From Flavobacteriia bacterium (GTDB lineage Bacteria; Bacteroidota; Bacteroidia; Flavobacteriales_D; Crocinitomicaceae), in the NCBI GenBank assembly GCA_947464135.1, contig CANHVK010000012.1, positions 1-44,689 of the forward strand: 44,689 nucleotides of DNA, written 5' to 3'. Both the position numbers and the translations under genes were made by a program. Shown here piece after piece: positions 16,180 to 38,746 of the stretch. Numbering within the stretch: position 1 is the stretch's first letter; every line of letters starts with the position of its first letter. The notes under the pieces were generated by a model. It searched no databases and was not told the origin of the DNA. It saw only the letters and a list, made by a program, of their open reading frames with translations.

Positions 16180-17178
16180 TCAATGCATTAATTTATAAAC
16201 TAGTTCAGTCATTAATTCCCCATCTTCTGCATGAGAATTTCCTATGCCTTTTGATTTTAAATCGTATTGATATAAGTAATTGATATTTCGAGCAATAATT
16301 TTGGGATTATATATTTTAGTTGCTTTTACCAATTCTCCCGCAACAAATGGATGTACCTTCAAAGCTGATGCAACTCCTTGGGATGTTTTATCCGAAACAT
16401 AATGTACCTTCATCAATTGACTAAAAAGATTATACAAAGACCCAATAATCACTACCAAAGGACCTGATTTTGGATTATGTTTAAAATAAGTGATGATTTT
16501 CATGGCTTTCAAATAGTCGTTATTTTGAACAGCACTATTCAACTCAAACATATTATAATCCTTGGAAATACCAATATTTTCTTCAATATGAATTTCATTT
16601 ATCGTAGTTCCTTTCTCTAAAATGATCGAAAGTTTTTCAATTTCTCCAGCAATTCTTGATAAATCATTTCCAATATTTTCGGCTAATAATAATGCTGCCT
16701 TACTTGAAATTTGAAAATTTACTGTAGCCACATACTTTGTAATCCAATCAACTAATTGATATTCTTTTATTTTGTCAGATGTAAAAACTACACCTACTTT
16801 AGAAAACAACTTTGCAACTTTTTTTCGGGAATCAACTTTTTTATACTTGTGAGCTAATACTAAAACCGTTGTTGGATTTGGATTTTCTAAATAACTTTCT
16901 AGCAAATCGATGTCTTTCATTTCTTGAGCTTCACGCACCATAACAAAACGACGTTCTGCCATCATTGGAAAACCTCTAGCTTCTAAAACGACTGATCTAA
17001 CATCAGCATCTTTTCCATAAACAATCGATTCATTAAAATCTCTCTCATGTTCCTCCAACACATTGTCATGAATCAATTTAGACAGTTGATCAATAAACAA
17101 TGGTTCTTCTCCCTGCAAAAGATATACAGGCTTAAAATCCTTGTTTTTAATTTGCTGCTGAAGCGACTTGAAATCCAT
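16180..17178 (-). CDS. holA: DNA polymerase III delta subunit
   Basis: The wrench subunit of the clamp loader, which opens the beta sliding clamp. The 332 residues fit HolA: the N-terminal segment KPVYLLQGEEPLFIDQL is typical, RFVMVREAQEM follows, then the mid-region LLAENIGNDLSRIAGEIEKL and a C-terminal all-helical collar domain. The gene leads the rsmE-DUF4159 operon. A full promoter box TATCTTTG stands only four bases before its ATG, which suggests a leaderless or near-leaderless mRNA, and the heptamer array begins 21 bases upstream of the start codon. Confidence 0.93.
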   Translation of the reverse strand: MDFKSLQQQIKNKDFKPVYLLQGEEPLFIDQLSKLIHDNVLEEHERDFNESIVYGKDADVRSVVLEARGFPMMAERRFVMVREAQEMKDIDLLESYLENPNPTTVLVLAHKYKKVDSRKKVAKLFSKVGVVFTSDKIKEYQLVDWITKYVATVNFQISSKAALLLAENIGNDLSRIAGEIEKLSIILEKGTTINEIHIEENIGISKDYNMFELNSAVQNNDYLKAMKIITYFKHNPKSGPLVVIIGSLYNLFSQLMKVHYVSDKTSQGVASALKVHPFVAGELVKATKIYNPKIIARNINYLYQYDLKSKGIGNSHAEDGELMTELVYKLMH

Positions 17179-17182
17179 AATT

Positions 17183-17190
17183 CAAAGATA
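17183..17190 (-). promoter_or_regulatory. Promoter -7 box very close to holA start
   Basis: TATCTTTG on the minus strand, followed by AATT and the holA ATG. With transcription starting a few bases past the box, the mRNA would begin at or next to the start codon. Upstream sequence is the heptamer array, with no -33 TTG at the usual spacing. Confidence 0.5.
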
Positions 17191-17199
17191 GTGTTTTTT

Positions 17200-17570
17200 A
17201 GTGATTAGTGGATAGGCATTAGGCAATAGTGATTAGTAAATAGTGATTAGTGAATAGGCAATAGGCAATAGGCAATAGGCAATAGGCAATAGGCATTAGG
17301 CAATAGTGATTAGTAAATAGTGATTAGTGAATAGGCATTAGGCAATAGGCAATAGTGATTAGTAAATAGTGATTAGTAAATAGTGATTAGTAAATAGTGA
17401 TTAGTGAATAGGCATTAGGCAATAGGCATTAGTAAATAGTGATTAGTGAATAGTGATTAGTAAATAGTGATTAGTGAATAGGCATTAGGCAATAGGCAAT
17501 AGTAAATAGTGATTAGTAAATAGTGATTAGTGAATAGTGATTGGTAAATAGTAATTAGGCATTAGAGAAT
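17200..17570. repeat. Heptanucleotide tandem array, 53 units
   Basis: 371 bases that divide exactly into 53 seven-base units with no insertion or deletion. Five unit types make up 49 of them: AGTGATT (15), AGGCAAT (12), AGTAAAT (9), AGGCATT (7) and AGTGAAT (6). The other four are AGTGGAT, GGTAAAT, AGTAATT and AGAGAAT, three of them in the last four positions at the right edge. All fit AG-nn-A-(A/T)-T with few exceptions. Units ending ATT tend to alternate with units ending AAT, giving a 14-base higher order. The array fills most of the divergent space between holA and the HsdR-N gene. Similar heptamer arrays occur between genes in some Bacteroidota and cyanobacteria; their role is unsettled. 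Confidence 0.97.
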
Positions 17571-17597
17571 TAAGCTTTAAGTTCTTAAGTAAAATAT

Positions 17598-17605
17598 TAA
17601 TTTTG
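17598..17605 (+). promoter_or_regulatory. Promoter -7 box for the HsdR-N gene
   Basis: TAATTTTG, a TAnnTTTG match, 10 bases before the ATG at 17616 and 27 bases past the end of the heptamer array. Confidence 0.45.
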
Positions 17606-17615
17606 CTGTGTGGTA

Positions 17616-18065
17616 ATGAAACGATTAAATCTTCCGAATGCTCCTTTGCGATTGACCCAAAAAGGTGAAATCATTTATGTGCATTGCCAAGTACGAAAAA
17701 AGAATTTAGTACTTACTCCCGAAGAATGGGTCAGACAACATGTAATTCATTTTCTATTATCTCATTCAGAAGTTCCTATTGGACTAATAAATACGGAAGT
17801 AGGAATGAAAATAAATAAACTCAAACGACGTTCGGATGTGATTGTATTTGGTTCTGATACATCCGTATTGTTATTAGTTGAATGCAAAGCACCTGAAGTT
17901 CCAATAAACGAGAAAGTACTTCATCAAGCAGCACAATACAATTCTCATGTTAAAGCCCGCTACATATGGCTTACAAATGGTTTAGACCATCATTTATATC
18001 ATATCAATCATCAAACTGGTGAGATTGCAAGATTGGAAGAATTGCCGAAGTATAAGGAATTATGA
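17616..18065 (+). CDS. Stand-alone HsdR N-terminal (PD-(D/E)XK-like) domain protein
   Basis: A 149-residue protein resembling only the nuclease-type N-terminal domain of type I restriction subunits. The core is KRRSDVIVFG (about 68-77) followed by LLLVECKAPEVP (88-99), giving the D...ExK arrangement of PD-(D/E)XK nucleases, then a helix with HQAAQYN. There is no helicase part. In Bacteroidota such a protein is commonly placed beside holA, so it is probably a core gene rather than a fragment of the nearby hsdR; a DNA-repair or replication role is possible but unproven. The ATG at 17616 is preferred over the GTG two codons earlier. It is convergent with hsdR, 21 bases apart. Confidence 0.8.
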   Translation: MKRLNLPNAPLRLTQKGEIIYVHCQVRKKNLVLTPEEWVRQHVIHFLLSHSEVPIGLINTEVGMKINKLKRRSDVIVFGSDTSVLLLVECKAPEVPINEKVLHQAAQYNSHVKARYIWLTNGLDHHLYHINHQTGEIARLEELPKYKEL

Positions 18066-18086
18066 ATAATGGGGTATGAGTTAAAC

Positions 18087-20993
18087 CTACTTCACGCCAT
18101 TTACAAAAGTCTCTACGAAATCTAAAATCTTAGAAAGTAATCTATCTCCGATGGTTTTTCGTTCTAATAGCTTTGGTTTTTCTCCTTCGATTAAATCTAA
18201 CAACTCATTTCTTAACGGTTCTCTTTCTGCAAATAAATACGTTTCAATCAATTTTTCTGTTTTCTCTTCTGATAAATTCTCTTCGGCTACAATTTGTTTG
18301 AACGCTTTGATTTGTTCTGATGTCCAGAAACGCTCAAATTCATCAGAAACATCTTCTGAATTTTGAATAATCGGAAGGTTTTCTTGAATGAATTTTTCGA
18401 TTAATTCTCGTTTGGTTCTCAATGTTGGATCACCGGTTAATAAATCAACAATCTCTTTTTTCTTCTTCTCTATTTCATTCGGTTGGGATTCTTTTAAGCC
18501 TGCTAAAAGATTGAGTATGTAGTTTACATTGATTTCATCTCTATGAATTAATTCTAATTCAAAATCGACATCTTCCAATATGGAAACTTTTTCTTTTTCA
18601 GTTGTTTTGCGAACGGTTTCATATATATCTAAATACTTGCTTTTGTAGTCTTCGAATTCTTGTTCGTTCATTTCTAAACCATCGTGCGTAAAATCTGAAA
18701 ACGTAGTTAGAATGTTTTTGATGCGCATTAACTCACGAAATGCTTTTACAAATTCTAATTTGCTTGTTTCGTTGTTCAATTCATTTACACTGTCTATGGT
18801 TGGAACAAGTTTCAAAAGCGTTTCGTATGCTTCGTTGAATTTACTCACGTAATCTTCATACGGTTGCATTATAATTACATCTTTCGCATCTTTATTCGAA
18901 AACAAGGCAATAGCATCATCAGTAGCCTTTTTTAGATTTCTAAATGAAAGAATATTCCCTTGTGATTTTAATTCGTCTAATATTCTATTTGTTCGTGAAT
19001 AGGCTTGAATTAAACCGTGGTATTTTAAATTCTTATCGACATACAATGTATTTAATCCTGGACTATCAAATCCTGTCAAAAACATATTGACAACCAATAA
19101 AATATCAATTTGCTTTTCTTTTACTTTTTTTGAAATGTCGTTGTAGTAATTGTAAAACAACACACTGTCTTTGGTGGAAAATTTAGTCCCGAAAAGCGTA
19201 TTGTAATCCCCTATAAACGATTCTAATTTATCGCGTGAATGTTCATCTTTTTTACCGTAAACAGCCATTGGTTCAGCGACCATTCCTAAGGTTGAACTTT
19301 CTTCGTTGAAATCAAAATTATAGGAACCATCAGCACCCTGGTCTTCTTCATTTGCTGTATAACTGAAAATCGTAGCGATTTTTAAGTTGTGTTTTCCTTC
19401 TTCTTTCTTTTGTTTGAAGAGTTCGTAATAAGCAATCAAAGTATCGACACTATTAACACAAAACATCGCGGTAAAGGTTCTGCTATGTGTTTTTCGGCTG
19501 TGGTTATCGATGATATAATCAACAATTTTATTTAACCGAATTGGGGAATTCATTAATTCTGCGGTATCGATATCTTCAACCTCAATATCTATGTTTGTGC
19601 GACTATCTTCTTTTTGTTTATAACGTCCAACGTATTCTACTGAAAAACGCAACACGTTTTCATCGTTAATTGCATCAGTTATCACGTATTTGTGTAAACA
19701 TTCACCAAAAAGTTCTTTGGTTGTTCGTTTACCCAATTCATTTTTCACTGCATTTTCAGCGAAAATGGGTGTACCGGTAAAACCAAACATCTGACTATTA
19801 TTGAAAAACGCTTTGATTTTCGCGTGTGTTTCACCAAATTGAGAGCGATGGCATTCATCAAAAATAAATACAATACGCTCGTCTTTCAGTTTATCCATTT
19901 TTTCTAAATATTGCTTTTTGCTAATAGCAGTATTTAGTTTTTGAATGGTGGTTACGATGAGTTTGTTATTCTTTAATTCGCCTTTTTTGTCTTTATAATT
20001 ATCGATGAACTGATTCACCAAGTTAGTCGTGTTATCAGTTCCATCTACACTTCCATCGGAGAAACCATTGAATTCTTTGGTTGTTTGGTAATCCAAGTCT
20101 TTACGATCGACGACAAAAACCACTTTTTTCACTTGTGGCAAGTTCATTAAAATTTGACTTGCTTTGAATGAAGTCAAGGTTTTACCTGAACCTGTGGTAT
20201 GCCAAATGTATCCGTTTTTATTGGTGTTTTTGACTGTTTCGATTAATGATTCAACTGCATAATATTGATAAGGGCGCAACACCATCAATACTTTGTGTGT
20301 TTCATTTAACACGATGTATTTAAAAATCATTTTAGAAATGGTACACGGCTCTAAAAATTCAGAAGTAAAACCATTCAATATGTTCGTTAATCGTTTGTTG
20401 TTTTTATCTGTCCAATAAAAGGTTTGTTTGAACGATTGCTTTTTGTTGTTGGCGTAATATTTGGTGTTTACTCCATTACTAATGATGAATAACTGAACGT
20501 ATTGAAACAAAGCAGCGCCTGCGCCAAATGAATGTTTTTGATAGCGGCCGATTTGATTGAATGCTTCTTTTAACTCTAATCCTCTGCGTTTTAATTCTAT
20601 TTGAACCAATGGCAATCCATTGATTAATAAGGTAACATCGTACCTGTTTTTGTATTCTCCCTTAATGGTTACTTGATGTGTGACTTGAAATTGATTTTGA
20701 CACCAAAATTCTGAATTAATGAATTCGAAATAAAGGTTATCACCTGCATCGCTAACAATATGTTGTTTTTCACGCAAGGTTTTTGCTTTTTCGAAAACGG
20801 TTCCTTTGCTCAAAATATTCAAGACACGTTCAAATTCTTTGTCGGTAAACTGAATGTTATTATGTTTCTCTAATTGTTGTTTTAGATTGATTAATAGGTC
20901 TTTTTCATCTTTAATGGAAACGAAACCATATCCCATTCCTGTTAATAAGGAAACCAACTGTTCTTCTAATACTAATTCTGGTTGTTTTGCCAT
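18087..20993 (-). CDS. hsdR: Type I restriction endonuclease subunit R
   Basis: The motor and nuclease subunit of a type I restriction-modification enzyme: with HsdM and HsdS it translocates unmodified DNA and cuts at a distance. The 968 residues hold an N-terminal nuclease domain (D119 in RYDV, E133-x-K135 in QIELKRRG), a SF2 helicase with Walker A HTTGSGKT at 265-272 and DECH at 379-382, then GFTGTP and the second RecA domain (FDSPGLNTLYVDKNL, AYSRTNRI), and a helical C-terminal tail. All key residues are intact, so the subunit should be active. Its start lies one base after the Abi-gene stop, so it is likely co-transcribed with that gene, while hsdM-hsdS lie beyond a terminator. Confidence 0.97.
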   Translation of the reverse strand: MAKQPELVLEEQLVSLLTGMGYGFVSIKDEKDLLINLKQQLEKHNNIQFTDKEFERVLNILSKGTVFEKAKTLREKQHIVSDAGDNLYFEFINSEFWCQNQFQVTHQVTIKGEYKNRYDVTLLINGLPLVQIELKRRGLELKEAFNQIGRYQKHSFGAGAALFQYVQLFIISNGVNTKYYANNKKQSFKQTFYWTDKNNKRLTNILNGFTSEFLEPCTISKMIFKYIVLNETHKVLMVLRPYQYYAVESLIETVKNTNKNGYIWHTTGSGKTLTSFKASQILMNLPQVKKVVFVVDRKDLDYQTTKEFNGFSDGSVDGTDNTTNLVNQFIDNYKDKKGELKNNKLIVTTIQKLNTAISKKQYLEKMDKLKDERIVFIFDECHRSQFGETHAKIKAFFNNSQMFGFTGTPIFAENAVKNELGKRTTKELFGECLHKYVITDAINDENVLRFSVEYVGRYKQKEDSRTNIDIEVEDIDTAELMNSPIRLNKIVDYIIDNHSRKTHSRTFTAMFCVNSVDTLIAYYELFKQKKEEGKHNLKIATIFSYTANEEDQGADGSYNFDFNEESSTLGMVAEPMAVYGKKDEHSRDKLESFIGDYNTLFGTKFSTKDSVLFYNYYNDISKKVKEKQIDILLVVNMFLTGFDSPGLNTLYVDKNLKYHGLIQAYSRTNRILDELKSQGNILSFRNLKKATDDAIALFSNKDAKDVIIMQPYEDYVSKFNEAYETLLKLVPTIDSVNELNNETSKLEFVKAFRELMRIKNILTTFSDFTHDGLEMNEQEFEDYKSKYLDIYETVRKTTEKEKVSILEDVDFELELIHRDEINVNYILNLLAGLKESQPNEIEKKKKEIVDLLTGDPTLRTKRELIEKFIQENLPIIQNSEDVSDEFERFWTSEQIKAFKQIVAEENLSEEKTEKLIETYLFAEREPLRNELLDLIEGEKPKLLERKTIGDRLLSKILDFVETFVNGVK

Positions 20994-20994
20994 T

Positions 20995-21924
20995 TTACTT
21001 CCAAATAGGTTCTTGATCCCAATTGTTTAAAAACCCCAATTTATAAATTGAAATTGAAGGATATCTTTTAAATAAATCTAAAATATCATGCTGAATTTTA
21101 TTGTTCTTATCAACTATTTTACATTGATAAACCAAGCAAGAAATAATAATGAAAGGCTTTTTTAACTGTACTGGTGTAATTGGATTTTGAAACCAAGTAC
21201 CTATTGGATTTTTTAAATTGAAAATAGGTGTTTTAACCATATTTTTACTCCAAAGTCTTGAATGATGTGCAATAATGTTTCGAACATAAGTAATTGACTC
21301 TAACCAAGAAGATAACTCAGAGTGAAAATTTAATCCCATTTCTTTTGAAATTATTGATTTCTCAGGTAATTGGTGTTTTAAATTTTTGAATAATTTAGAC
21401 AAAGTACCTAATGATGCTACTTCTAATAATTTCCAAGCATCAGCATCTAGTTTTGGATATCTTTTTTTGTGATCTTGAACAAAAATTTCTTGACTTCTAT
21501 TGAACTCTTTTTTTAATTCTGAGATCGTATTATCGTATATCGTAGTTATTGTTCCATCTTTTAATTTTAAAGGGACTTTTTCAAATAATTTTTCATTTTT
21601 ATACCATAATCCACCGTAAGCAAGAGATAGATGATAAATCATTTTAGTTCTCAATGAAATCTCTATTAATTCTATTGCATTGAACAAAATTAATCTCAAT
21701 TCTTTATCAAAATTATACCTTTCAATGACTTCCTCGAAATAAACATTTTCTTCAAATTGATGATTGATTTTGTCAACTTGTAAATCCCACCAATACCCTT
21801 TTAGTCGATAATAACTAATATTCTTTAAATAATTTACTGCATTAGTTTCGTTTTTGAATAACATTCCTCGTGATTTCAATAATGTTATTTGATCATTTAA
21901 AGAATATGCAGGTTTATTTGGCAT
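20995..21924 (-). CDS. Abi family protein (Abi_2/AbiF type, HEPN)
   Basis: A 309-residue protein of the Abi_2 family (lactococcal AbiD/AbiF relatives), proteins that stop phage by abortive infection. The N-terminal pattern KPAYSLNDQITLLKSRGM and YRLKGYWWDL is typical. The motif RNIIAHHSRLWSKN (215-228) contains the R-x4-H signature of HEPN ribonucleases (R215, H220). The start is placed at ATG 21924 (MPNKPAYSL); an upstream in-frame ATG at 21969 would add 15 residues without family support. It has its own promoter box and runs into hsdR with a one-base gap. A stand-alone RNase toxin of this kind may act when restriction fails (inference). Confidence 0.9.
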   Translation of the reverse strand: MPNKPAYSLNDQITLLKSRGMLFKNETNAVNYLKNISYYRLKGYWWDLQVDKINHQFEENVYFEEVIERYNFDKELRLILFNAIELIEISLRTKMIYHLSLAYGGLWYKNEKLFEKVPLKLKDGTITTIYDNTISELKKEFNRSQEIFVQDHKKRYPKLDADAWKLLEVASLGTLSKLFKNLKHQLPEKSIISKEMGLNFHSELSSWLESITYVRNIIAHHSRLWSKNMVKTPIFNLKNPIGTWFQNPITPVQLKKPFIIISCLVYQCKIVDKNNKIQHDILDLFKRYPSISIYKLGFLNNWDQEPIWK

Positions 21925-21986
21925 AGGTATAAAAAAAAATGACCCGAATGCAGATCTTACGGTATGCATAACGGGTACTGTTAATA

Positions 21987-22052: not shown

Positions 22053-22733
22053 TTATGTAGTTCTACAAAATGTATCTTCCTTCCATTTTGATGGATTTTT
22101 TTCAATGTAATTTTGAATATTTTCGAACGCCAATGAATTTCGAATGATGTGATCGTGATAATTCGATTGCCATTTAAAATCGGGATTTATTTTTCGGTTG
22201 TGAATGGTTACCATTCGTTTGTATTGATTTATAATTACTCCAATTGTTCCGGGTTTCCATTCGTCGATTTTACCTCCGTTTGAGATGCCCAAATTGGGCA
22301 TCTCTGGGGACGGGGGTTGTGTGGTGGGGGTTAATATGCCCAATTTGGGCATATCGGTGGATGGTGTGGTGGATATTGTGGTGGATGGTGTGGTGGATAT
22401 TGTGGAGATGCCCAAATTGGTTGTTGATATGCCCAATTTGGGCATATCAACAGCCGGTTTATCAATAATCAATATACCATGGGTATGATTGGGCATCACC
22501 ACAAAATTTCCCAATTCGATGAATGGAAAATGATTGGGTATTTCCAACCAAAATCGGGTTGCATTTTCTCCTAATTGGTTTAAATGCATTTCTCCATTTT
22601 TTATTTCTCCAAAATAATGTTTTCTATCTTGTGTACAAATGGTGATGAAATAGGCGGAATTTCTACCGTAATCCCAATTTTTCAAGCGATTGGATGCTAT
22701 TCTATATTTATTTTGAAATTTTTTCTGTGACAT
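22053..22733 (-). CDS. REP-associated tyrosine transposase (Y1/HUH family)
   Basis: A 226-residue single-strand DNA transposase of the IS200-like TnpA_REP (RAYT) group. The HUH histidines are in MPNHTHGI; YFITICTQDR precedes it; the catalytic tyrosine is probably in QNYIEKNP near the C-terminus, after WQSNYHDHIIRN. Between about residues 93 and 150 sits a low-complexity insert with the peptide MPKLGI/MPNLGI three times and ISTTPSTT twice, encoded by palindromes and a 24-base direct repeat. RAYTs are usually immobile single-copy genes tied to palindromic REP sequences. It lies between the hsdS terminator and the Abi promoter, splitting the restriction locus. Confidence 0.9.
   Translation of the reverse strand: MSQKKFQNKYRIASNRLKNWDYGRNSAYFITICTQDRKHYFGEIKNGEMHLNQLGENATRFWLEIPNHFPFIELGNFVVMPNHTHGILIIDKPAVDMPKLGISTTNLGISTISTTPSTTISTTPSTDMPKLGILTPTTQPPSPEMPNLGISNGGKIDEWKPGTIGVIINQYKRMVTIHNRKINPDFKWQSNYHDHIIRNSLAFENIQNYIEKNPSKWKEDTFCRTT
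22282..22304. repeat. Palindrome 1 inside the transposase gene
   Basis: GAGATGCCCAA-a-TTGGGCATCTC, arms of 11 bases, perfect. It belongs to the same family as the repeats at 22334-22354 and 22422-22452, with a truncated copy (left half and centre) at 22405-22420. Confidence 0.9.
22334..22354. repeat. Palindrome 2 inside the transposase gene
   Basis: ATATGCCCAA-t-TTGGGCATAT, arms of 10 bases, perfect. It shares the core TGCCCAA/TTGGGCA with the other copies. Confidence 0.9.
22356..22403. repeat. 24-base direct repeat, two copies
   Basis: Two exact head-to-tail copies (22356-22379 and 22380-22403) of a GGTGGATGGTGTGG-type unit. On the minus strand each encodes an eight-residue Ile/Ser/Thr/Pro block of the transposase. 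Recent duplication is likely because the copies are identical. Confidence 0.9.
22422..22452. repeat. Palindrome 3 inside the transposase gene
   Basis: Perfect inverted repeat with 15-base arms around one central T. The core GATATGCCCAA/TTGGGCATATC is shared with palindromes 1 and 2. As single-stranded DNA it would form a stable hairpin, the kind of structure RAYT enzymes recognise. Confidence 0.92.
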
Positions 22734-37792: not shown

Positions 37793-38746
37793 TTAGTTAA
37801 AGTGATTAGTTATTAGTTTGTTGGCCATTTCGAACGCAACTTCAGCCATTTTATTTTTTTTCTCGTCTAAACAAGGATTAATTTCAACGAATTCAAGACA
37901 GGTTACTTTATTTGTTTTTAACAACCCATTCATAATTTCAAAAGCTTCATCAGGCTTCAAACCATTCTCAACAGGAGTTCCTGTACCATGAGAAGTATAT
38001 AATGGATCCATAGAATCAACATCAAAAGAAATATAAATTAAATCACAATGAGCTAATTTAGAGTTAATTTCAGACAGTATACGATCCGTACCTTTGATTC
38101 TAACATCATCCACAGAAACAGAAGATATATTTAATCGATTTATCAAATCAACTTCTTCTTTCTCAACATCTCTAACAGCAACATAAACAAGATCTTCAGG
38201 ATTTATTTTAGGACAAATTCCGTGTAAATTTTTCAATTTATTCCAACATTCAACTTCTTCTTCAGATAGATGATTTCGTTTGTTGTTTAAATTATCTTCT
38301 GCTAAAGCCGTAGCAACAGGCATTCCGTGCATATTTCCAGAAGGAGTTGTGTATGGAGAGTGAATATCACCGTGCGCATCTATCCAAACAACCCCAACTT
38401 TTTTATCAGGAAATTGTTTTTTAATTCCAGCAATTGTTCCACCAGCAGATCCATGATCGCCAGCAAAAACAAAAGGAAAACGATGTAGATTATATACAGA
38501 AGCTAGGGCATCTGAAACCGCTTCATATACATTTATTAATCCTTCCACATTTTTTGCAAAAGGAAATTTAGTGTCATGATCCAGTAAATAATTACAATCT
38601 GTGAGTGTTTGAATCGGATATTTACCAAATAATTGGTTTTTAATTTTTCTAGCTTCAGTAATAACAGCATACGGACCTAAAGAAGCTCCCCTCGTACCTG
38701 CGGTAATTTCAGAAGGGTTAATTATAAAAGTTATATCTTTATACAT
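37793..38746 (-). CDS. Arginase family hydrolase
   Basis: A Mn-dependent ureohydrolase, most like arginase. With the start at ATG 38746 (MYKDITFIINPSEITAG) it has 317 residues; an upstream in-frame ATG at 38788 would add 14 residues that look unlike the family. The metal ligands are all present: H98 in GDHGS, D123/H125/D127 in DAHGDIH, and D242/D244 in SFDVDSMDP. The segment NMHGMPVA follows the second ligand set. Arginase, agmatinase and formiminoglutamase share these motifs, so arginine is the likely but not certain substrate. It lies directly upstream of argS. Confidence 0.9.
   Translation of the reverse strand: MYKDITFIINPSEITAGTRGASLGPYAVITEARKIKNQLFGKYPIQTLTDCNYLLDHDTKFPFAKNVEGLINVYEAVSDALASVYNLHRFPFVFAGDHGSAGGTIAGIKKQFPDKKVGVVWIDAHGDIHSPYTTPSGNMHGMPVATALAEDNLNNKRNHLSEEEVECWNKLKNLHGICPKINPEDLVYVAVRDVEKEEVDLINRLNISSVSVDDVRIKGTDRILSEINSKLAHCDLIYISFDVDSMDPLYTSHGTGTPVENGLKPDEAFEIMNGLLKTNKVTCLEFVEINPCLDEKKNKMAEVAFEMANKLITNHFN

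Follow-up and report, generated by a model that had tools for sequence, protein, structure and literature searches.

Positions 17,200–17,570 of the window, the window being the whole stretch of 44,689 nucleotides that was analyzed, are occupied by a tandem array of 7-bp units that takes up the intergenic space separating holA from a divergently transcribed gene with an HSDR_N_2 domain. The window is contig C12 of a 2.31-Mb assembly composed of 104 contigs and 84% complete. The features of the locus are the following:

16180 to 17178, minus strand: holA, DNA polymerase III delta subunit (PF06144, PF21694), with its start codon 21 bases from the array
17183 to 17190, minus strand: putative holA -7 box CAAAGATA, which is TATCTTTG on the holA strand, by fit to the Bacteroidota consensus
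17200 to 17570, plus strand (the G-rich strand): heptamer tandem array of 53 units in the register TAG(TG/TA/GC)A(A/T)
17228 to 17255, plus strand: AGTGATT AGTAAAT AGTGATT AGTGAAT, an example of the dimer rule
17256 to 17290, plus strand: run of five AGGCAAT units, evidence for 7-bp steps
17543 to 17570, plus strand: degenerate right edge, GGTAAAT AGTAATT AGGCATT AGAGAAT
17598 to 17605, plus strand: possible -7 box of the divergent gene, TAATTTTG, by the Bacteroidota consensus
17616 to 18065, plus strand: gene with an HSDR_N_2 domain (PF13588), divergent neighbor of holA

The array lies outside the open reading frames (ORFs) and outside both putative -7 boxes, and any -33 element of holA would overlap its edge. 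CAAAGATA/TATCTTTG was read as the holA box by its fit to TANNTTTG, the -7 box consensus of Bacteroidota. The motif CAAAGNTA, presumably the Bacteroidota -7 box when read on the holA strand, is found next to the start codon of holA at each of the 13 genus loci compared. No Rfam match at gathering score was obtained in 16900–18200. Beyond the HSDR_N_2 gene, the minus strand at 18087–21969 carries two genes, one for a type I restriction R subunit and one of the Abi_2 family, and a perfect 24-bp tandem duplication, GGTGGATGGTGTGGTGGATATTGT, was located by Tandem Repeats Finder at 22356–22405.

The array was predicted to consist of 53 uninterrupted heptamers of about five types, and counting gave 53 units in phase and free of indels from 17200 to 17570, of which 49 belong to AGTGATT (15), AGGCAAT (12), AGTAAAT (9), AGGCATT (7), and AGTGAAT (6). 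With its 7-bp units, a length beyond chance, and a position in a spacer, it is an intergenic heptanucleotide tandem array. The neighbor rules proposed for the units were likewise borne out. AGTAAAT is followed by AGTGATT in nine of nine cases, a count averaging 2.5 in shuffles of the same 53 units and reaching nine in none of 20,000; AGTGATT is self-adjacent in 0 of 15 cases (equally low in 64 of 20,000 shuffles) and is followed by a unit ending in AAT or by a one-base variant of it (AGTGGAT, GGTAAAT), for which the counts given earlier were correct; and AGGCATT precedes AGGCAAT in five of seven cases. The mutual information between neighbors is 1.45 bits, compared with 0.64 ± 0.09 in shuffles, and it was equaled in 0 of 20,000, so the rules do not recur when the same units are shuffled. 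Both the array of 53 heptamers and its non-random unit order are thus confirmed.

The alternation of units ending in ATT and AAT, another part of the original prediction, was upheld to a large extent: the final three bases change at 43 of the 52 steps (shuffle mean 27.1; 43 reached in 0 of 20,000), but it fails in the runs of AGGCAAT. This is the sole unit type that is ever self-adjacent in the array, six times in all, in the run at 17256–17290 and in two pairs farther along, which breaks the alternation by one-unit phase shifts, a point absent from the prediction. Since these runs shift the phase, some 7-bp steps must also have occurred. Sequence drift had been assigned to the right edge, where three of the last four units are indeed non-standard; unit 2 is non-standard too, so that both edges are affected. 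The non-standard units (2, 50, 51, and 53) are each at most four from an edge, with a chance of 2.4e-4 for a question posed post hoc. Worn units at both edges are as expected if copying keeps the interior of a tandem array uniform. Tandem Repeats Finder called a 70-bp period in the array. A higher-order period of 70/77 bp was considered and rejected, since the best lag identity (lags 3–26) was matched by 1,119 of 2,000 first-order Markov simulations and thus amounts to no more than the neighbor rule; for lag 11 by itself, the level was matched in 31 of 2,000.

The order of units constrains how the array may have grown. Growth was simulated with 2,000 runs per model, using simple models and an assumed seed, and runs were discarded if unit types were lost or the array remained short. 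Duplication of one unit reproduced the observed self-adjacency and alternation in 0 of 1,307 kept runs and duplication of two units reproduced the observed statistics in 418 of 1,446, while one or two units at equal chance gave them in 0 of 1,300. Duplication of blocks of 2 to 11 units and of 1 to 11 units yielded them in 84 of 1,834 and 63 of 1,802 kept runs, respectively. The simulations rule out single-unit slippage as a main step and leave the block size unfixed. The proposal of copying in 14-base steps instead of single-unit slippage is therefore sustained against the one-unit model, but the AGGCAAT runs require 7-bp steps as well; the inference of block copying holds for the most part, 14 bp being one of several step sizes.

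As a general rule, 14 bp was contradicted by the relatives. At least eight consecutive TAGKNAW units were found in 9 of 240 family genomes, own genome included, and seven of these nine (G014, G082, G092, G093, G095, G115, and G116) show single-unit runs only, among the matches listed. For instance, TAGTGAT is self-adjacent throughout in G115, among the matches listed. Among the 240 family genomes, mixed or alternating units characterize the window array and G008. A shorter alternating two-unit array is present on contig C50 of G002, and in the flanks of PF05635 genes (best 80 of 575 relatives), a repeat at lag 14 without lag 7 was recorded in 5 of 160 flanks and at lag 16 without lag 8 in 3 of 160. 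The dimer recurs in relatives, yet it is no rule.

The holA gene is present in 12 of 13 genus genomes, own genome included, and judged by eye, it has an HSDR_N_2 neighbor in 8 of these 12, own genome again included; another gene lies beside holA at L104, L105, and L137, and L133 ends there (by eye). A comparison of unit order and length at this locus, as the original prediction had proposed, could be carried through the genus with the following outcome. The spacer has no clear heptamer run at L138, L139, and L122 and holds approximately three to seven degenerate heptamers of the ATTATGR or TTAGGAA type at L104, L105, L106, L134, L136, L137, and L140 (all by eye), while the spacer of L135 is cut by a contig end. 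G002 (L133), whose HolA is 88% identical, has 10 TAG units at the holA site, again by eye. Congeners therefore carry 0 to approximately 10 units of differing sequence against 53 here, and the growth of the array at the holA site is lineage-restricted. Two other kinds of repeats were seen at this spacer: short heptamer runs in inverted pairs with no four-helix-bundle gene between them at L117, L119, and L132 (by eye), and, near the spacer in G001 (L105:2755-2994), repeated period-13 motifs, AAAAACTACCCAG.

These comparisons bear on three other explanations of the array. An assembly artefact or misjoined repeat is suggested by the fragmented assembly and by the other TAG arrays of the genome, which lie at contig ends (C48 and C100). 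The window array, on the contrary, is contig-internal with the expected gene pair on both sides, the longest exact repeat within it is 55 bases, and a related array occupies the corresponding spacer of the sister genome G002, which makes an artefact hardly credible; the length of the array is given as assembled. A contingency array, whose changing length would regulate holA or the HSDR_N_2 gene by tuning or switching, would agree with a position between two divergent genes and with a length that varies strongly by species. It is nevertheless improbable, as a change of length in an array outside the reading frames and the putative -7 boxes would shift no frame or box spacing, and several congeners manage without an array. 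A protein-binding array, with one nucleoid, RNA-binding, or Csp-like protein per heptamer, is more improbable still: MacGregor proposes such roles for the TAACTGA arrays upstream of start codons (PMC4679880), but the unit sequence at the holA site varies by species, which a sequence-specific binder would tolerate poorly.

Heptamer arrays are already known, and the window array alone is ordinary in kind. According to PMC4679880, TAACTGA arrays of up to 43 copies are found in Beggiatoaceae, Cyanobacteria, and five Bacteroidetes; like the window array, they have a 7-bp unit and are intergenic, often just before a start codon and in one orientation, and some close relatives have shorter spacers without obvious repeats, as here. 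The window array differs from them in its several interleaved unit types, its neighbor rule, and its unit sequence. A term search of the text of PMC4679880 found no mention of a four helix bundle. The same source, citing Mrazek 2007, reports that heptanucleotides are the commonest long simple repeats in most genomes and names slippage as the cause (PMC4679880). That finding speaks for a rival reading of the array as a neutral heptanucleotide satellite, by which bacterial polymerases would slip readiest in 7-nt steps so that arrays arise in any spacer, and any likeness to the arms of other genes described below would reflect shared slippage. It is a tentative but serious possibility, and a generic preference for 7-nt slippage would account for the period without kinship.

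In support of this satellite, most of the TAG arrays seen in relatives are solo. Three consecutive TAGKNAW units were found in 11 of 40 genomes, own genome included, and a control pattern read backward matched in 4 of 40 and 5 of 240 genomes, so heptamer arrays of other sequence are also present in the family. Each genome tends to have unit types of its own. In G014, TAGGTAA makes up 10 of 11 places among the matches listed, spread over many contigs, and none of the listed arrays of this genome (290 contigs) shares a contig with any of its nine PF05635 genes. G082 has three distant TAGGAAT arrays, one of them beside a decayed PF05635 relic (L251:1503-2067); the (ATTCCTA)n and (ATTCGTA)n arrays on the two sides of this relic share one orientation instead of being inverted. 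Palindromic repeats of the CTTCGACATGCTCAG / GAGCTTGTCGAAG type adjoin heptamer arrays in three genomes (L020, L053, and L149). In G001 and G010, a like heptamer stretch ending in TAGTAGTTATTTTT occurs at three places (L048, L051, and L058) and is possibly a dispersed element.

Beyond the family, the window array as a DNA query matched no phage record among those searched and 1 of 72,556 plasmids, a Bernardetia plasmid of 601,782 bp whose record holds two TAG arrays and two PF05635 genes. At its best place, (TAGTGAT)14 stands approximately 55 nt before an annotated four-helix-bundle gene, and on the other side of that gene, just before recF, degenerate units lie on the other strand (by eye). 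The second array of this plasmid has eight units and stops 8 nt short of an inositol monophosphatase gene's start, with no four-helix gene in the 3 kb shown.

A similar arrangement exists in the genome of the window. Its four PF05635 matches are on C1, C47, C58, and C2, and no PF05635 ORF is present on C12. One four-helix gene lies between two genes read by eye as sdhA and sdhB; its left flank reads TAGTAAA TAGTAGT TAGGCAA TAGGCAT and its right flank, on the other strand, TAGGCAA TAGGCAA TAGGCAT. The window array shares units with this arm pair, and G020 has the same arrangement of the four-helix gene. In the genus, 21 of 28 PF05635 loci reached at least the 95th percentile of 648 mispaired flanks for a match in inverted orientation (L102, which is another fragment of the locus already represented by L098, was left out); L090, L091, L094, L095, L097, L098, and L101 were below it. 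With one representative for each of ten operon families, the mean inverted match was 35.5, compared with 18.9 when deranged and a maximum of 21.5 in 300 derangements. By eye, the arm units vary with the operon yet match within each, such as AGATTNN, AGACNTN, TTTCAAC, GACAATK, GTGACGR, and ATGTTTA, and one family has 8-mers. The possibility that TAG units serve as stop codons was dropped as not general, since arms elsewhere (GGACTCG, AGTTTCA) contain no TAG. Among the PF05635 genes viewed at L074-L101 and L171-L250, many of those in the genus lie between codirectional genes (by eye).

The arms extend across phyla. From 575 confirmed relatives, the best 80 were retained, as ranked by their similarity to four proteins from the genus of the window, and they were grouped by record titles. 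The closest named relatives of the own-genome protein in this set, in which records very close to the window's genome may be missing, are from Flavobacterium, so that Flavobacteriaceae is the likeliest family of origin of the window. Two loci with short flanks were dropped, and of the 78 usable ones, 61 were at or above the 95th percentile of the mispaired flanks of their own group and 17 below (best 80 of 575), with 29/40 in Bacteroidota, 9/14 in Firmicutes, and 23/24 in the others at or above it. Repeats in the 160 flanks of these best 80 of 575 were at lags 7 (23), 8 (12), 14 (18), 16 (11), 21 (8), 24 (4), 15 (2), 17 (1), and 19 (1), and none was found at lags 3–6 and 9–13. Among 149 control stretches 900 nt away, which are mostly coding, lags 7 and 8 had none and lags 9, 14, 18, and 21 one each; at least one flank passed at lag 7, 8, 14, or 15 in 34 of the 80 loci (best 80 of 575) against 1 of 74 controls. 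The contrast was smaller when 49 other intergenic gaps served as the control: lag 7 or 8 was detected in 3 of them, compared with 34 of the 160 flanks (odds ratio 4.1, one-sided p 0.009). Taken separately, the gaps from these same 80 loci contributed 2 of 33 (p 0.028) and those from the holA loci 1 of 16 (p 0.13). Arrays are thus enriched at the PF05635 gene and are also found without it. Furthermore, left flanks exceed right flanks in G-skew at 75 of the 80 loci (best 80 of 575).

Two known systems combine heptamers with paired ends. In Coxiella, the ends of the 23S intervening sequence (IVS) are complementary and are cleaved by RNase III, and its S23 ORF is preceded by two to three tandem heptamers that vary among strains (PMC4990558). 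Its S23/IVP protein is of the same family as the genes whose arms resemble the window array; the own-genome insert, however, lies between protein genes, and the window array has neither an ORF nor a second arm. In Nostoc, the P6b element of the tRNA-Leu(UAA) intron is described as a stem of 7-nt repeats, Class I TDNGATT and Class II NNTGAGT, with 14-nt insertions, and the repeat class shifts between lineages in a constant 7-nt frame (PMC4476775). Its heptamers are paired and within a group I intron (PMC4476775), unlike the unpaired window array. As for the arms described above, no report of inverted 7/8-bp arms of PF05635 genes outside rRNA and between protein genes was found in open-access literature by titles and the starts of abstracts.

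The arrays have a handedness with respect to genes. Out of 41 array rows, 8 were dropped for a missing neighbor on one side; the ORFs were called mechanically, and the loci are a non-random set from the matches listed and chosen stretches. In this set, 25 of 33 arrays have the nearer gene on the 5' side of the TAG strand (sign test, p 0.002). The same is true of 21 of 29 once the window array and the rows beside intact four-helix genes are excluded (p 0.012), and of 19 of 26 when three further sequence-sharing loci were also removed (p 0.014). A gene lies within 20 nt of the 5' end in 21 cases and of the 3' end in 7. Left arms sit at the stop of a codirectional gene, and right arms sit where a gene on the opposite strand begins. 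With respect to holA, the window array is placed like a right arm, 20 nt at its 5' end against 53 nt at its 3' end by the mechanical ORFs. It is, accordingly, a gene-edge array of 7-bp units whose G-rich strand starts at the edge. A hairpin or cruciform formed by the window array was considered and discarded, as both strands fold less well than their shuffled versions (z +2.0 and +2.6). For the own-genome four-helix insert, arms included, the folding z was -5.8, and the terminal heptamers are paired. At the window site, the array is in one orientation only, and no partner arm was found in the window, where two stray matches with one to two mismatches, at 37800 and 3982, are all that occurs outside the array. 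With the ORF and the second arm missing, the window array itself is not a PF05635 (IVS-like) element.

We put at roughly 0.5 the probability that the window array belongs, as an expanded array in a single orientation (one-handed), to a widespread class of arrays with 7- or 8-bp repeats, and it probably has no function of its own. The members of this class would most tellingly be the inverted arm pairs around PF05635 genes, and others would stand solo at gene edges, like the window array; solo arrays and arms would have one origin. A short run of heptamers between holA and the HSDR_N_2 gene may have been the start of the array, which would then have grown by tandem duplication, through replication slippage or unequal exchange, mostly in blocks of at least two units with some single-unit steps. 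Slippage is the presumed mechanism, and the neighbor rules and the worn edge units would be what block copying left behind. The array would do nothing specific except lengthen the promoter spacer. In paired members, the arms would be expected to form an mRNA stem that RNase III cuts, by analogy with the intervening sequence of 23S rRNA.

The proposed tie of the array to the PF05635 arms is drawn from the shared units, the shared handedness, and the Bernardetia case. Against such kinship stand the mostly solo TAG arrays, the 7-bp arrays in 3 of 49 other gaps, the matches of the backward pattern, and the same-orientation arrays of G082, along with the 7 of 28 genus and 17 of 78 named loci below the percentile and a repeat test passed by just 34 of 80 loci (best 80 of 575). 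In each of the 12 holA-bearing genus genomes, the contig with holA had no PF05635 match, and therefore nothing shows that such a gene was ever at the site, which counts against it, too. The solo arrays, the gaps, and the backward matches are also what favors the neutral satellite; slippage alone, however, predicts neither the inverted matching of flanks at PF05635 genes nor the handedness of arrays.

Taken by itself, the window array adds another case to the heptanucleotide satellites, although its history of block copying can be read with unusual clarity. It matters as a pointer to four-helix genes of the 23S-IVS type, which in many phyla (best 80 of 575) often have inverted arms of 7- or 8-bp units, and this arm rule may be the part that specialists find surprising. 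If true genome-wide, it would provide a testable handle on the placement of these genes in operons and on mRNA excision, as well as on the origin of some simple repeats in bacterial spacers.

A bolder extension, which we regard as unlikely, is that the 7/8-bp arrays and the PF05635 genes are two faces of one element spreading between operon genes. The gene with two inverted arms would be its full form, geneless arm pairs and solo arms its reduced forms, and the match of the arms with one another and with other arrays in their genome would be maintained. The PF05635 protein is kin to Avd, which partners reverse transcriptases in diversity-generating retroelements, so that copying through RNA is conceivable. 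On the own-genome four-helix protein, the bAvd model (PF22296) scored 39.8 bits against a cut-off of 40.
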